DNA of 64,000 bases, taken from NCBI RefSeq assembly GCF_003268655.1, contig NZ_CP029642.1, positions 2,666,001 to 2,730,000 of the forward strand, given 5' to 3'. The stretch comes from Arthrobacter dokdonellae (GTDB taxonomy: Bacteria > Actinomycetota > Actinomycetes > Actinomycetales > Micrococcaceae). Position numbers and translations under genes: made by a program. Position 1 is the stretch's first letter. The number at the start of each line of letters is the position of its first letter. This document shows, in pieces, positions 40,800 through 48,306 of this stretch. The notes beneath the pieces are model-generated. The model was not told the origin of the DNA. It worked only from the letters and a program-made list of their open reading frames with translations, and ran no database searches.

Positions 40800-41510
40800 T
40801 TACGCTTCTCCTCTGATCATGCGAATAAAAAGTCCGTGGATGCGGCGCTCGCCCGTCACTTCCGGATGGAAGGAGGTGGCCAGCAAGTGCTGCGAACGCA
40901 CGGCAACGGCACGTACCTTGGGTGCAATTCTACCGTTTTGCGCTGAAGGGTGCGCCGCTGCGGGGATTTCCACACTAGCAAGGACCTGCACGCTGGCCCC
41001 GACGCGTTCCACCCATGGGGCGCGGATGAAGACGGCGTGGACAGTCTTTTCCGGTTCGCCTGCGGGCGCCAGCGCGGTGAACTGCAGCTCCGTTTCGAAG
41101 GAATCCACCTGGCGGCCAAAAGCGTTGCGGCGCACCGTGATGTCCAGCCCGCCCAGCGTCTGCTGCGCCTTGCCGGCCAGGTCCGTGGCGGGGTCGGCAA
41201 TTTCATCGGCGAGCAGGATCATCCCGGCGCAGCTGCCATAGACCGGCAGCCCTTCCCGGATGCGGTCGCGCAATGGCTCCCGCAGCCCAAAGATGCGGGT
41301 CAGCTTGTCGATCGTGGTGGACTCCCCGCCGGGGAGCACCAGTCCGTCGACGGCCGCCAGCTCGGACGGGCGCCGGACCGGCACGACACGCGCCCCGCAG
41401 GCTTCGAGGGCGCGGGCGTGTTCACGCACATCGCCCTGGAGGGCCAGGATTCCGACGAGGGGGCGCGATCCGTTGCCGGACAGGGGAATTTCAGGGATGG
41501 GTGCACTCAC
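40800..41510 (-). CDS. pdxT: Pyridoxal 5'-phosphate synthase glutaminase subunit
   Basis: Hydrolyses glutamine and feeds ammonia to PdxS for vitamin B6 synthesis. 236 residues, triad-type amidotransferase: [12 protein letters not shown], nucleophile cysteine in [11 protein letters not shown], and the His-Glu pair in [12 protein letters not shown] 41510. It is separated from pdxS (47299-48201) by three plus-strand genes, whereas the two are usually adjacent. Confidence 0.96.
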
Positions 41511-41641: not shown

Positions 41642-44326
41642 ATGTGCGGAATCGCCGGGTACTACGGTTATGGGGAAGACGAAACTCTCCTGCAGGCAAT
41701 GAACACGTGCATGGTGCACCGCGGGCCGGACGGGGAGGGCATCCATGCCGATGGCAACGTAGGTCTCGCGCACCGGCGGCTCTCCATCATCGACGTGGCG
41801 CATGGGCAGGAGCCGATGTACAGCGCCGACGGTGAGACCGTCCTTGTCTACAACGGCGAGGTCTACAACTACCTCGACCTGCGTGCCGAGCTCGAGGGCC
41901 TGGGACGCACCTTTTCCACGAAGTCCGACACCGAAGTGGTGCTCCAGTCCTACGAGGAGTGGGGCGACGCGGCCTTTGACAGGTTCAACGGCATGTTCGG
42001 CCTGGCCATCCACGACCGCAGAAACAGCCGCCTGGTGCTGGCGCGCGACCATTTCGGCATCAAGCCGCTGTATTACGCCACGGCGGGCACCGCCGAGGCC
42101 CCCACCCTGCTGTTCGCCTCCGAGATCAAGCCGCTGCTGGCCGCCGGCAAGCTGGACAAGGAAGTCAACGAGCGGATCCTGTTCCGTTACCTGCAATTCC
42201 GCATCCACGACGAGGAAGCCGAGACGTTCTTTGCCGGCGTACACAAGCTGATGCCGGGCGAAAAGCTGGTCCTGAACACCACGGCCACGGAAACCGGCCC
42301 GGCCGGCACCATCACCATCAGCCCCTACACGCGGCTGAAGGAAGAGCTGGCCGAGCTGGCCAAGATCGAGACCCCCTATTCTCAGGCGGTGATCGACGAA
42401 TACCGCGAACGCTTCACGGAGGGCGTGCGCCTGCGCCTGCAGTCCGAAGTCCCCGTGGGCACGGCCCTCTCCGGCGGGCTGGACTCCTCCGCCGTCGTGG
42501 CCACCATCAACAAGCTCATGCAGGAAAAGGCCGCCGCCACGGATTCCCTGGGGGCCACGCAGCAGACCTTCTCCGCCGTGTTCCCCAACTCCCTCAATGA
42601 CGAGGAAAAGTACGCCGACGCCGTGTTGGCCCGCTGTGAAGGCAACGTCACCAGCCACAAGATCCACCCCCAGGCCTCCGAGTTTGTCGAGGACCTGGAG
42701 GACTTTGTGCGCACCATGGAGGAGCCCATCATCTCCTCCGGCCCCTACGCCCAGTACCAGGTGATGCGCGAGGCCTCCAAGCACGTGACCGTCCTGCTCG
42801 ACGGCCAGGGCGCCGATGAGATGATGGCCGGCTACATCCCGTACTACTTCGCCTACCTGCGCCAGCTGAAGAAGAGCGGTCAGAACGGCAAGCTCGCCAA
42901 GGAACTTGCCTCCAGCTCGGACATCCTGTTCCGGCTGGCCCGCTTCCGCATCCAGGGCGCCCTGGCGTTCAAGAAGGCAAGCGGCATCACCCCCCTGCTG
43001 AACAAGAAGTTCACGGCCAAGTACAAGTCCGAGACCTTCTCCAACATCCCGGACAACCTCAAGCTGCGCCTCATCGACGATCTGTTCCACAAGTCGCTGC
43101 CGGCCGTCCTGCGGTACGAGGACAAGAACACGATGCGCTTCTCCCTGGAGGGCCGCGTGCCGTTCCTGGACAAGGAAGTCGTGAAGTTCCTGTTCAGCCT
43201 CGACGATGAATCCATCATCAAGGGCGGCTGGAACAAGCGCATCCTGCGCGATGCCACCCGCGGACTGCTGCCGGAGATGATCAGCAACCGCCGCAACAAG
43301 ATCGGCTTCACCACCCCCGAAGCCGAGTGGTTCTCGCTGATGAAGGAAAAGATTTACGAAATCTTCCTGTCCTCCTCCTTCGGTTCGCGCCCGTATTGGG
43401 ACCAGGACGCCGTCATCTATGCCTTTGAGGAATACCTCAGCGGCAAGTCCGCCGGCTCCACCATGGTGTTCTGGCGCCTGATCAACACCGAGCTGTGGCT
43501 GCGCGAGTTCTTTGACGTCGAGGAAGTCAAGGCCGGCATCGAGGGCAAGAGCGACTACATCCCCAACGCCGACAAGCAGCTGGACATCACCGTGCCCGAC
43601 GGCGCCGGGACCTTCCGCCGCTACCCGCTGCGCACCGAGGTCTTCTACAAGGACACCGACTTCGACCCCACCGTCATGCGGTACGTCAGGCGCTTCTTCG
43701 ACGGCCTGCCCGCCGCCGGGGGCGACCACGGCGCCGTGACGGCGGACACCCCCTGGTACCTGTTCGTCTCCGAAAAGATCGTGGCCATGACCCAGGGCCG
43801 GTCCATCCCGGTCTGGGACATCAAGGTCTCCGGCGCCGCACGGGTCTTCAGCAAGTTCGTCACCCGCAATCCCGGCGGGATCGGCCTGGCCAGTCCCTGG
43901 TCCATGCAGCTGGCCATTGACGAGGTGGGCCTGCCGCGGATCATGTACGCCTCCGCCCGCTCGGTGATCGGCAAGCTGCAGGGCAAGTCCGGCGTGTTCT
44001 ACGACGTGGTGGGCCACAACATCAACGCCATTGACGGCGCCGCCGGCTACCAGGTGGGCACGTCCACCCACTCCGTCAAATACGCGCCTCTGGACCCCGA
44101 CGGCGTCGCGGCCCGTCTGAGCGCCCTGGTCCGCCAATCGGTGCCGGCCGAATACGCCGCCACGTTTGCCGGCACGGCGATCATGGACGCCAATGACCTG
44201 GGCGTGGTGGCCCTGGGGCACGACACCGCGCTCACCAAGGCCGTGCTGCAGGACATCTTCCGGGACAACCCGCAGGGCCAGACCACGGAAACCACGCCGA
44301 TGTCCCTGGTGTTCACCCGGAAGTAG
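41642..44326 (+). CDS. asnB: Glutamine-dependent asparagine synthase fused to a CofE-like gamma-glutamyl ligase domain
   Basis: 894 residues, about 250 more than an ordinary AsnB. Residues 1-220 are the class II glutaminase (Cys2 in MCGIAGYYG; RGPDGEGI). Residues 250-630 are the ATP-pyrophosphatase synthase core (ALSGGLDSSAVVAT near 277). From about 645 to the end the sequence resembles coenzyme F420-0:L-glutamate ligase: LFVSEKIVAMTQGRS, then VGHNINAIDGA, then APLDPDGVAARL and AIMDANDLGVV, the counterparts of the CofE strand, loop and acidic metal-binding motifs. AsnB makes an amide on a carboxylate and CofE-type enzymes make gamma-glutamyl amides, so the product may be an amide or gamma-glutamyl compound. 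Start ATG 41642 has GAGGA nine bases upstream. Divergent from pdxT. Confidence 0.86.
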   Translation: MCGIAGYYGYGEDETLLQAMNTCMVHRGPDGEGIHADGNVGLAHRRLSIIDVAHGQEPMYSADGETVLVYNGEVYNYLDLRAELEGLGRTFSTKSDTEVVLQSYEEWGDAAFDRFNGMFGLAIHDRRNSRLVLARDHFGIKPLYYATAGTAEAPTLLFASEIKPLLAAGKLDKEVNERILFRYLQFRIHDEEAETFFAGVHKLMPGEKLVLNTTATETGPAGTITISPYTRLKEELAELAKIETPYSQAVIDEYRERFTEGVRLRLQSEVPVGTALSGGLDSSAVVATINKLMQEKAAATDSLGATQQTFSAVFPNSLNDEEKYADAVLARCEGNVTSHKIHPQASEFVEDLEDFVRTMEEPIISSGPYAQYQVMREASKHVTVLLDGQGADEMMAGYIPYYFAYLRQLKKSGQNGKLAKELASSSDILFRLARFRIQGALAFKKASGITPLLNKKFTAKYKSETFSNIPDNLKLRLIDDLFHKSLPAVLRYEDKNTMRFSLEGRVPFLDKEVVKFLFSLDDESIIKGGWNKRILRDATRGLLPEMISNRRNKIGFTTPEAEWFSLMKEKIYEIFLSSSFGSRPYWDQDAVIYAFEEYLSGKSAGSTMVFWRLINTELWLREFFDVEEVKAGIEGKSDYIPNADKQLDITVPDGAGTFRRYPLRTEVFYKDTDFDPTVMRYVRRFFDGLPAAGGDHGAVTADTPWYLFVSEKIVAMTQGRSIPVWDIKVSGAARVFSKFVTRNPGGIGLASPWSMQLAIDEVGLPRIMYASARSVIGKLQGKSGVFYDVVGHNINAIDGAAGYQVGTSTHSVKYAPLDPDGVAARLSALVRQSVPAEYAATFAGTAIMDANDLGVVALGHDTALTKAVLQDIFRDNPQGQTTETTPMSLVFTRK

Positions 44327-44439: not shown

Positions 44440-46464
44440 ATGACTTTGGAATTTTCCAGGAATCCGTTTCTGGCGCCCAGCACGCTGCCGTACCAGCTGC
44501 CCGACTTCGCCTCCGTCCGCGACGCCGACTACCTGCCGGCGTTTGAGGCGGGCCTTGCCCAGCAGCTCGCGGAGGTCGCGGCGATCGCCGCGAACCCGGA
44601 ACCGGCGTCGTTCGCTAACACCGTGGCGGCCATGGAGCGCAGCGGCGCCGTGCTCACGCGCGTGGCCAACGTGTTCTTCAACATTGCCGGCTCCGACGGA
44701 ACGCCGGCCGTCCAGGAGATCGAACAGCTGATCGCCCCGCGCCTGGCCGGGCACGCCGACACGATCCTGCTCAACGGGGCCCTCCACCGGCGCTTCCTCG
44801 ACGTGCCCACGGATGGGCTGGACGCGGAGTCGGCACGGCTGGTGGACGAATACCGCAAGGCCTTCACCCGCGCGGGCGTCGGGCTGGACGCAGCCGGGCA
44901 AGAGCGGCTGCGCGTCGTTAACGGGGAGCTCTCCTCCCTCAGCACGCAGTTTGCCCAACGGGTCACGCAGGCGGGCAACGACGCCGCCGTGCATGTCCAG
45001 GACGCGGCGGAGCTCGACGGGCTCAGCGCCGACGACCTTGCCACCGCGGCGGCCGCGGCGCGCGCCGCCGGGCACGGCTCCGGCTACCTGCTGACCTTGA
45101 TCCTGCCCACCGCCCAGCCGGCGCTGGAGGTGCTGACCAACCGGGAGACACGCCGCAGGCTGCACCTGGCCTCCGTAGGCCGGGGCAGTGGCGCGGACGG
45201 CTCCAACGTGCTGGGGCTGGCGGCCGCCATGGCCGCGCTCCGCGCAGAAAGGGCGGCCCTGCTCGGCCATGCCTGCGAGGCGGAGCGTTCCATCGAACCG
45301 CAGACGGCCCCGTCGCTCGAGGCGGTGCACGCCATGCTCTCCCCCATCACTGCCGCGGCAGTGCGCAACGCACGGGCCGAGGCGGAGAAGCTTGCCGCGA
45401 CGGCCGGACACGCCATCGAGGCGTGGGACTGGGCGTTCTACTCCGAGCAGGTCCGCCGGGACGACTACGGCGTGGATCTCGCCGCCCTGCGCCCCTGGTT
45501 TGGGCTGGACTCGGTGTTGGAAAACGGAGTGTTTTACGCCGCCTCCAAGCTGTACGGGCTGTCCTTCACCGAGCGGACCGACCTGGCCGGGTACCACCCC
45601 GACGTGCGCGTCTGGGAAGTGTTCAACGAGGACGGTTCCGCCCTGGGACTGTTCCTGGGCGACTACTACGCGCGCGAGACCAAGCGCGGCGGGGCCTGGA
45701 TGAACTCCTTCGTGGAGCAGTCGGCCCTCGACGGGACACGCGCCGTCGTCGTCAACAACCTCAACATCGCCAAACCTCCGGAGGGCGAGCCCACGCTGCT
45801 GAGCTACGACGAGGTGGTGACCTGCTTCCACGAGTTCGGCCATGCCCTGCACGGGCTGTTTTCCGACGTCGGCTACCCGAAGTTCTCGGGCACGAACGTG
45901 CCGCGCGACTTTGTCGAGTACCCCTCCCAGGTCAACGAGATGTGGATCCTGTGGCCTGAGGTGCTGGCCAACTATGCCCGGCACCACAAGACCGGGGAGC
46001 CGCTGCCGGACGGCACGGCGGAGCGGCTGCGGGCCGCCTCACTGTGGGGGCAGGGCTTCGCCACCACCGAGTATCTGGGCGCCGCCCTGCTGGACCTGGC
46101 CTGGCACGAGCTGCCCGCCGGGACCACGGTGGAGGATCCGCTGGCGTTCGAGGCCGCGGCGCTGGCCGCGGCCGGCGTGGACCTGCCTGCCGTTCCGCCG
46201 CGCTACCGGACCGGCTATTTCAACCACATCTTTGCCGGCGGTTACGCGGCCGGCTACTACTCGTACATTTGGAGCGAGGTGCTCGACGCCGACACCGTTG
46301 CCTGGTTCAAGGCGAACGGCGGGCTCTCGCGTGCCAACGGCGAACACTTCCGGTCAACGCTGCTGTGCCGCGGCTTCTCGGTAGTTCCACTGCAGGCCTT
46401 CCGCGACTTTGCCGGCCGGGACGCCGACACCGAGCCGCTGCTGGCTCGCAGGGGCCTGGCCTAG
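44440..46464 (+). CDS. M3-family oligoendopeptidase (Dcp/OpdA-like)
   Basis: Zinc metallopeptidase that degrades short cytosolic peptides. 674 residues with the active-site motif CFHEFGHALHGLF (His464, Glu465, His468) and the third ligand further on in the helical M3 domain. Length and the C-terminal MATKE-like helices fit the M3A group. ATG 44440 has GAAAGAG eight bases upstream. It is on the same strand as asnB, 113 bases downstream beyond the palindrome. Confidence 0.94.
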   Translation: MTLEFSRNPFLAPSTLPYQLPDFASVRDADYLPAFEAGLAQQLAEVAAIAANPEPASFANTVAAMERSGAVLTRVANVFFNIAGSDGTPAVQEIEQLIAPRLAGHADTILLNGALHRRFLDVPTDGLDAESARLVDEYRKAFTRAGVGLDAAGQERLRVVNGELSSLSTQFAQRVTQAGNDAAVHVQDAAELDGLSADDLATAAAAARAAGHGSGYLLTLILPTAQPALEVLTNRETRRRLHLASVGRGSGADGSNVLGLAAAMAALRAERAALLGHACEAERSIEPQTAPSLEAVHAMLSPITAAAVRNARAEAEKLAATAGHAIEAWDWAFYSEQVRRDDYGVDLAALRPWFGLDSVLENGVFYAASKLYGLSFTERTDLAGYHPDVRVWEVFNEDGSALGLFLGDYYARETKRGGAWMNSFVEQSALDGTRAVVVNNLNIAKPPEGEPTLLSYDEVVTCFHEFGHALHGLFSDVGYPKFSGTNVPRDFVEYPSQVNEMWILWPEVLANYARHHKTGEPLPDGTAERLRAASLWGQGFATTEYLGAALLDLAWHELPAGTTVEDPLAFEAAALAAAGVDLPAVPPRYRTGYFNHIFAGGYAAGYYSYIWSEVLDADTVAWFKANGGLSRANGEHFRSTLLCRGFSVVPLQAFRDFAGRDADTEPLLARRGLA

Positions 46465-46467
46465 ACC

Positions 46468-47196
46468 GTGGTGACCCTCGCAGACTGCGAACGCACCCAG
46501 CACGCCTGGTTCAAGGCCCAGGCCGCGGCCACCGGCGGGCGCGCCTTCGGCACGTACGGCATGGACTGGGTGTGGCTGCCCGAATCGCGGGAGATGCTGT
46601 GCATGTTCCCCACCGAGATCACCGACGCCGGGCTCCTGCCCGCCATGGCCGAGGCGGAGCGCCGCGGAGCCGCCGCGGTGGGCGTCTGGCTGAACGCCGC
46701 GGTCAATAGCACCGAGCTGGAACGGCACCGCTTCGAGCGCGGTTGGCAGCCGTGGTGGATGACGGCGCCGCTCGGTCCCGGACCGGTTGGCACGGATGCT
46801 GGTGGCTTGCAAGAGGTCGGCCCGGGCGCACGGGAGCGGGACGACCGGGTGCGCATCGACACGCCCACGGACGGGGTCTGCAGCCTCGATCCCCCGCAGG
46901 CATGGCTGGCCACGGCGCGCAACGGCGAAGAATGGGCCGGACAGTCGTACCTTTTCATGCCTCCCGAACAGGGCGCCAAGCACCTGGCCGGCATCTTTGA
47001 CATGTATGTGGCCCCCGAACACCGCCGTGACGGGCTGGGCACTGCCCTCCTGGACTGCCTGGCGGAAACTGCGTCCGACGCCGGGGCGGAGCACCTGCTG
47101 CTCAACGCCACCCCCGAGGGGCTTCAGCTTTACAGGGGCCGCGGCTTCCAGCTCATCGGCAAGGGCCGCACCTGGTGGCACCACCTGCCCCAATAG
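46468..47196 (+). CDS. GNAT-family N-acetyltransferase
   Basis: 242 residues from GTG 46468, three bases after the peptidase stop, so co-transcribed with it. The C-terminal GNAT fold has DMYVAPEHRRDGLGTALLD (acetyl-CoA loop) and LYRGRGFQLIGKGRTWWHHL. The N-terminal 130 residues resemble a second degenerate GNAT half (GLLPAMAEAERRGAAAVGVW). The acceptor is unknown. Confidence 0.88.
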   Translation: MVTLADCERTQHAWFKAQAAATGGRAFGTYGMDWVWLPESREMLCMFPTEITDAGLLPAMAEAERRGAAAVGVWLNAAVNSTELERHRFERGWQPWWMTAPLGPGPVGTDAGGLQEVGPGARERDDRVRIDTPTDGVCSLDPPQAWLATARNGEEWAGQSYLFMPPEQGAKHLAGIFDMYVAPEHRRDGLGTALLDCLAETASDAGAEHLLLNATPEGLQLYRGRGFQLIGKGRTWWHHLPQ

Positions 47197-47298: not shown

Positions 47299-48201
47299 CT
47301 ACCAGCCGCGCTCGGCGAGGCGGTGCGGCTCGGGGATGTCGGCGACGTTGATGCCCACCATGGCCTCGCCCAGGCCGCGGGAGACGTCCGCGATGACCTT
47401 GGGGTCGTCGTAGAACGTGGTGGCCTTCACGACGGCGGCGGCGCGCTGGGCCGGGTTGCCGGACTTGAAGATGCCGGAGCCGACGAACACGCCGTCCGCG
47501 CCGAGCTGCATCATCATGGCGGCGTCGGCCGGGGTGGCGATGCCGCCGGCGGTGAACATCACCACGGGCAGCTTGCCGGTCGCGGCAACTTCCTTGACGA
47601 GCTCGTACGGTGCCTGCAGTTCCTTCGCGGCCACGTACAGCTCGTCTTCGGGCAGGGCCGCCAACTGGGCGATCTGCGTGCGGATCTTGCGCATGTGGCC
47701 CGTGGCGTTGGAGACGTCCCCGGTGCCGGCCTCGCCCTTGGAACGGATCATGGCCGCACCTTCGTTGATGCGTCGCAGCGCCTCGCCGAGGTTGGTGGCG
47801 CCGCAGACGAAGGGAACCTTGAAGTTCCATTTGTCGATGTGGTGCTCGTAGTCGGCCGGGGTGAGGACCTCGGACTCGTCCACGTAATCCACGCCCAAGG
47901 ATTCCAGCACCTGCGCCTCGACGAAGTGTCCGATGCGGGCCTTGGCCATGACCGGAATGGAGACCGCGGCAATGATGGCGTCGATCATGTCCGGGTCGCT
48001 GGCTCGCGAGACGCCGCCCTGCGCGCGGATGTCCGCGGGGACGCGCTCCAGCGCCATGACGGCAACGGCGCCGGCATCCTCGGCAATCTTGGCTTGCTCG
48101 ACATTGACCACGTCCATGATGACGCCGCCCTTGAGCATCTCGGCCATGCCCCGCTTGACGCGGCTGCTGCCCGTTACCGCTGATACATCGCTTGTAGACA
48201 C
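47299..48201 (-). CDS. pdxS: Pyridoxal 5'-phosphate synthase lyase subunit
   Basis: Builds PLP from ribose 5-phosphate, glyceraldehyde 3-phosphate and ammonia. 300 residues from GTG 48201, preceded by AGAGGGG. The first Schiff-base lysine is Lys87 ([10 protein letters not shown]), and the phosphate-binding [14 protein letters not shown] and [10 protein letters not shown] loops are present. It is convergent with the GNAT gene; the partner pdxT is 5.8 kb away. Confidence 0.97.
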
Positions 48202-48306
48202 AAAAACCCCTCTGGGAAGGAACGAAAAAATTGTTTTGCCCGAACGTGGCATGCCACACGGGTACGCCCATTCTATTCCCGCCCGGCGCCCGGGTTGAAA
48301 CCGCTG

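Follow-up and report, generated by a model that had tools for sequence, protein, structure and literature searches.

What is the function of a protein in which an asparagine synthetase is followed by a domain resembling CofE, the F420-0:gamma-glutamyl ligase? The question is raised by a gene of Arthrobacter dokdonellae located in the stretch of DNA analyzed here (64,000 nucleotides, positions 2,666,001 to 2,730,000 of contig NZ_CP029642.1; hereafter the window). The original prediction, made from the nucleotide sequence, described a protein of about 894 residues with a complete AsnB and an extra domain. This description was confirmed: positions 41642..44326 of the + strand contain an ATG-started open reading frame (ORF) of 894 amino acids and a stop codon, and its product is over the cut-off of the AsnB profile TIGR01536. 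In agreement with the prediction, no described enzyme of AsnB-CofE form was found in open-licence PubMed Central (PMC) papers. As far as sequence comparison can tell, AsnB and a CofE-fold module form a real, old and widespread fusion, whose C-terminal half (the tail) is a predicted ligase.

The AsnB half

The N-terminal half (residues ~1-630, positions 41642..43531, + strand) comprises glutaminase and synthetase domains. The window protein scored 418.3 bits against TIGR01536, which has a curated cut-off of 267.1 bits, and Asn_synthase (PF00733), GATase_7 (PF13537) and GATase_6 (PF13522) were all over their cut-offs. The N-terminal MCGIAG, which gives the nucleophile Cys2, and SGGLDSS at residues 277-283 (42470..42490, + strand), which we take to be the pyrophosphate-binding motif of the synthetase site, place the protein in the AsnB family. 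The top structural matches of the full-length predicted model were AsnB-type; other glutamine amidotransferases and no CofE were found among the 50 matches listed of 638. By profiles and model alike, this half belongs to the AsnB family of glutamine-dependent amidotransferases and is complete.

It is the sole AsnB over the family cut-off in the A. dokdonellae genome. A search of that genome for gatB, AsnA and AsnRS detected gatB, no AsnA over cut-off and only sub-cut-off matches to AsnRS, which suggests that protein synthesis is probably supplied with asparagine formed on tRNA. Asparagine synthesis by the AsnB half is then probably not needed for tRNA charging. Such a supply would leave this half free for another role, and it may provide free asparagine or amidate something else.

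The CofE-like half

The tail begins at about residue 636-637, slightly before the residue 640 given in the prediction, and extends to residue 894 (43547..44323, + strand). It had been expected to match the F420_ligase profile PF01996. The window protein itself stayed below the cut-off of 25 bits, with 16.8 bits (E 0.005) for the tail by itself and 14.2 bits (E 0.032) for the full sequence, and no precomputed F420_ligase domain was recorded for any of the 120 nearest homologues listed (of 486). The expectation held for relatives: some at 34-49% identity passed the cut-off, among them five of nine free-standing members and the fusion fragment P0146, as did all nine more distant fused homologues scanned (39-55 bits). 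In each of these nine fused homologues, GATase, Asn_synthase and F420_ligase were all over cut-off. When a family profile of the tail was compared with the PDB, CofE alone was found (E 6e-5, from two stretches each weak singly); the single tail sequence gave chance matches only. For structure comparison the tail was folded alone, since the full-length model had given no CofE match in the rows listed. The predicted fold matched CofE, clearly over unrelated folds. Taken together, profiles and predicted fold indicate that the tail is a member of the CofE/F420_ligase superfamily and belongs to a distinct clade of CofE-fold modules, with free-standing forms in many phyla.

All three motifs named in the prediction were located: SEKIVAMTQGR at residues 710-720 (43769..43801, + strand), APLDPDGVAARL at 815-826 and IMDANDLGVV at 847-856. 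To compare them with the known family we aligned 56 CofE-like sequences jointly with 23 FbiB/CofE sequences (from 25 loci, two without the search motif having been dropped). SEKIVAMTQGR aligned with TSKxVSKAEGR of FbiB. The clade shares with CofE and the FbiB N-terminal domain (PF01996) the fold, the order of GR motif, DPD-type linker and D-T/D-A strand, and D849, which lies in MDANDLG (residues 848-854, 44183..44203, + strand), is invariant and aligned with the invariant Asp of the FbiB/CofE DT motif. It differs from them in lacking the GRPWRxG loop after this strand together with about 15 further residues, and the window protein differs also in its fusion to AsnB. The clade also has a GIGLxSPxTM segment that is not present in the FbiB/CofE set (GIGLASP in the window, residues 746-752, 43877..43897, + strand). 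In addition, its C-terminal loop is DNPxGQxxExTP; the window copy, DNPQGQTTETTP (residues 875-886, 44264..44299, + strand), is near-invariant in the clade and aligned with the VKGKxxGxP loop of FbiB. AIDG (residues 796-799, 44027..44038, + strand), also near-invariant, is a candidate counterpart of a CofE metal aspartate. The polar motifs of the clade are near-invariant in general, and [AS]IDG and DNPxxQ were kept in all 225 fused proteins of at least 800 amino acids. According to PMC10861534, F420 is contacted in CofE by residues 153-155 and by a domain-swapped hairpin. It is with residues 153-155 (AfCofE numbering) that the missing loop aligns, and the further 15 or so missing residues would belong to the F420-contacting hairpin. 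For the gamma-glutamyl ligase-like site that had been proposed, superfamily membership is supported; this loop is missing, and gamma-glutamyl ligase activity is hypothetical.

Several observations weigh against an active CofE-type site. Identity between tail and CofE is low (13-20% in structural alignments). An hhalign comparison of the CofE-like clade with FbiB/CofE spans 43 columns with a probability of 71%, and with the full-length fusion alignment it spans 28 columns with a probability of 18%. Among the CofE residues we assume to be functional, K45 (GTP-binding), D109 (metal aspartate), D150 and E208, the position of K45 is Met or Ile in the CofE-like clade, and for D109, the second metal aspartate, the sequence allowed no counterpart to be assigned. 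Gln replaces the invariant Glu that precedes GR. QGR is absent from 12 of the 225 fusions and the D-x-N motif from six. Finally, no activity of any member of the clade turned up.

Distribution

The fusion is no speciality of the Micrococcaceae; it extends beyond this family and Arthrobacter and is widespread. Fusions of at least 800 amino acids made up 225 of the 272 proteins examined (the window's own included), from Micrococcales to Dormibacterota. A near-full-length fusion was present in 30 of 120 Micrococcaceae genomes, A. dokdonellae included and one being reported in two pieces, and one further genome (G044) carries a decayed form. Across 149 genomes of the order, 16 had a strong match to the domain, in frames of 254-288 amino acids in four cases and of 842-1016 in twelve; a 17th match was weak. 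At class level the domain was matched in 11 of 246 genomes. With a more distant tail as query, fusions named Dormibacterota, Chloroflexi, Acidimicrobiia, Frankiaceae and other Actinomycetota appeared among the 120 matches listed of 407. One fused homologue, P0233 (1023 amino acids), has an extra C-terminal YjbR domain.

Relatives of the free-standing type came from Patescibacteria, Bacteroidales, Clostridia, WOR-3, Thermotogota, Armatimonadota and Chloroflexi records (80 loci of at least 388, classed as free-standing by the ORF caller alone). At 71 of these 80 loci the gene falls into one ORF cluster with a median of 234 amino acids; some short proteins among the relatives are parts of fusions cut off by a contig end. 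Within one genome, G383, several paralogues occur. Where they are named in the sources, most fused proteins are called simply 'asparagine synthase' (among the 120 of 486 and 120 of 407 listed), and with that annotation the second half and its free-standing relatives go unnoticed.

Fusion history and decay of the AsnB half

In the AsnB tree a branch with full support separated off the 31 sampled fused halves (Shimodaira-Hasegawa-like approximate likelihood ratio test, SH-aLRT, 100), which makes one old fusion event the simplest reading of the sequences. Decayed halves were left out of this tree, and of the 20 unfused loci retrieved all but L182 yielded a usable protein. The fused protein contains the complete glutaminase and synthetase halves of AsnB; it differs from AsnB in carrying a CofE-like C-terminal half, and fused members group apart from 18 of the 19 AsnBs sampled as unfused. 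The exception among these 19 was L166 of genome G177, an intact AsnB without a tail nested among the fused halves. In the other copy in G177, L148, the AsnB half has decayed while the tail is intact. This is an apparent case of subfunctionalisation, with AsnB kept in one copy and the tail in the other.

The same combination of decayed AsnB half and intact CofE-like half was found in four genomes (G177, G044, G129 and G146), and in the last three no AsnB over cut-off was present anywhere in the genome. In these four decayed proteins the tail shows 46-48% identity to that of the window protein, while the AsnB half aligns with the window protein's in part only, at 22-43%. The fused AsnB of G203 scored 211 bits, under the cut-off of 267. 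SGGLDS is missing from 11 of the 225 fusions, and in 23 no MCG start occurs within the first 60 residues, some of the latter perhaps being truncated or mis-started. The free-standing form was sampled in 42 genomes, of which 22 had no AsnB over cut-off, including all four Micrococcales; most of the other 38 were metagenome-assembled genomes (MAGs). Since the CofE-like half persists after AsnB decay and stands alone elsewhere, the tail appears to be an independent module. Reciprocal loss in one genome and AsnB decay in others suggest that it probably does its own job, under its own selection. The two sites, which the prediction placed in one polypeptide, need not cooperate: the CofE-like half outlives AsnB and stands alone in the four Micrococcales genomes.

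The tree of the C-terminal half did not resolve the fused rows as a single clade. A tree joining 44 fused and seven free-standing metagenome rows fitted slightly better, by 3.25 log units, and was not rejected, with p-AU (approximately unbiased test) of 0.573. Caveats apply to one old fusion here: this value allows a single event without demonstrating it, the group was named after the tree was seen, and both trees were made by a 'quick' method on hand-picked rows (84 and 50) with long-branch warnings.

Possible function

We favour, as probable though far from certain, a polypeptide of two separable modules, an AsnB amidotransferase and a CofE-fold ligase whose substrate is neither F420 nor folate. 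The CofE-like half would be an active ligase dependent on metal and nucleoside triphosphate. Like CofE, it would activate a carboxylate as an acyl phosphate and then join an amine, and a nucleotide-dependent amide ligase is what its sequence most likely indicates. The two halves would act independently, the fusion serving co-production, not channelling. Identifying the substrate of the CofE-like half would add a reaction to those assigned to the CofE fold. It could also give a reason for the retention of AsnB in bacteria that seemingly charge tRNA(Asn) by the indirect route.

The absence of the F420-contacting loop and the usual presence of folC make ligation of F420 or folate unlikely. That the tail is a genuine F420-0:gamma-glutamyl ligase is scarcely credible, although CofE is the closest characterised fold and Pfam family. 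The missing loop is the one aligned with the F420-contacting residues 153-155 (PMC10861534), the PF01996 model gave no match in the A. dokdonellae genome at E <= 0.001 (of the F420 pathway, the search covered this family alone), and G184 holds a genuine CofE/FbiB beside its free-standing CofE-like gene. It is very improbable that the tail is a folate gamma-glutamyl ligase replacing FolC. FolC2 (CT611 of Chlamydia, COG1478) is indeed a CofE homologue with a role outside F420, and such a homologue is able to replace FolC according to PMC1971073. Unlike that case, 43 of the 54 carrier genomes examined have folC (TIGR01499) over cut-off; these 54 were hand-chosen, and many of those reached through loci are MAGs that may be incomplete. 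A. dokdonellae (344.3 bits, cut-off 162.65) and all 15 other genomes of its order examined were among those with folC over cut-off. The 11 carrier genomes without it, nine of them of at most 1.0 Mb and one without any match, leave a folate role possible in those 11.

A tail that extends AsnB for regulation or oligomerisation, without catalysis of its own, would fit the fused-size frames of 12 of the 16 strong matches in the order, and the changes at some CofE residues that we presume functional. We nevertheless find this explanation improbable, given the free-standing genes in many phyla, the retention of the tail after AsnB decay and of AsnB without the tail in G177, and the near-invariant polar motifs. 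It is also unlikely, if slightly less so, that the protein acts with both its halves on a precursor of the cell envelope, the AsnB half amidating a carboxylate and the CofE-like half adding an amide-linked residue. LtsA/AsnB-type peptidoglycan amidotransferases resemble the fused protein at family level in being AsnB-family enzymes not bound to asparagine synthesis; we know of none with a CofE-like tail. The probable dispensability of asparagine synthesis for tRNA charging is in line with such a role, and some free-standing genes lie near MurJ, ATP-grasp PF14397, alanine-racemase-like or GlmS-type genes. AsnB homologues (LtsA/AsnB) amidate meso-diaminopimelic acid, according to PMC8554201. However, 149 neighbours of free-standing genes fell into 143 families with none recurrent (at most 6 of 149; nearest ORF per side, proteins trimmed to 320 amino acids, from a longest non-overlapping caller that is unreliable at high GC). 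In addition, PF14397 was over cut-off in eight of 120 Micrococcaceae genomes and in none of the 30 with the fusion, one of the eight, G044, having the decayed form. More generally, the CofE-like clade might be a phylum-spanning amide-ligase family with a substrate, possibly a cell-envelope precursor, shared by Patescibacteria, Bacteroidales, Clostridia and Actinomycetota, and the AsnB fusion an old enzyme amidating and ligating within one pathway. We regard this wider proposal as doubtful. The two-module protein with a ligase for neither F420 nor folate is the reading we retain.

Neighbouring genes

Downstream of the fused gene an M3 peptidase gene (44440-46464) and a GNAT gene (46468-47196) are present, both on the + strand as the original prediction had stated. 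The suggestion that they act on its product was not borne out: across 16 fused Micrococcaceae loci viewed, the M3 peptidase gene followed the fused gene at no more than 1.4 kb in 12 (a contig end cuts one of the other four), and the GNAT gene followed in three. This block of three genes is flanked by a pdxT-like gene (40800-41510) and a pdxS-like gene (47299-48252). Genes that we presume to be pdxT and yebC, named like pdxS by assumption, were upstream in all 16 loci, about 3.2 kb off in one. Promoter-like and terminator-like matches in the window were at background level, with none at the ends of the fused gene.

The free-standing genes had no constant neighbour or operon partner in the survey made with the longest non-overlapping caller; GlmS and MurJ neighbours were viewed with a caller using GC content at third codon positions (GC3). 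An ATP-grasp gene (PF14397) adjoins the free-standing gene in four of four f19 loci (L082-L085, L099-L102), with alanine-racemase-like genes near in three of the four. MurJ adjoins divergent free-standing genes in four of six f38 regions viewed (L156, L158, L160, L161), and a GlmS-type gene lies upstream in four of 80 free-standing loci. The associations with ATP-grasp, MurJ and GlmS genes are restricted to a small number of lineages and serve as leads only.
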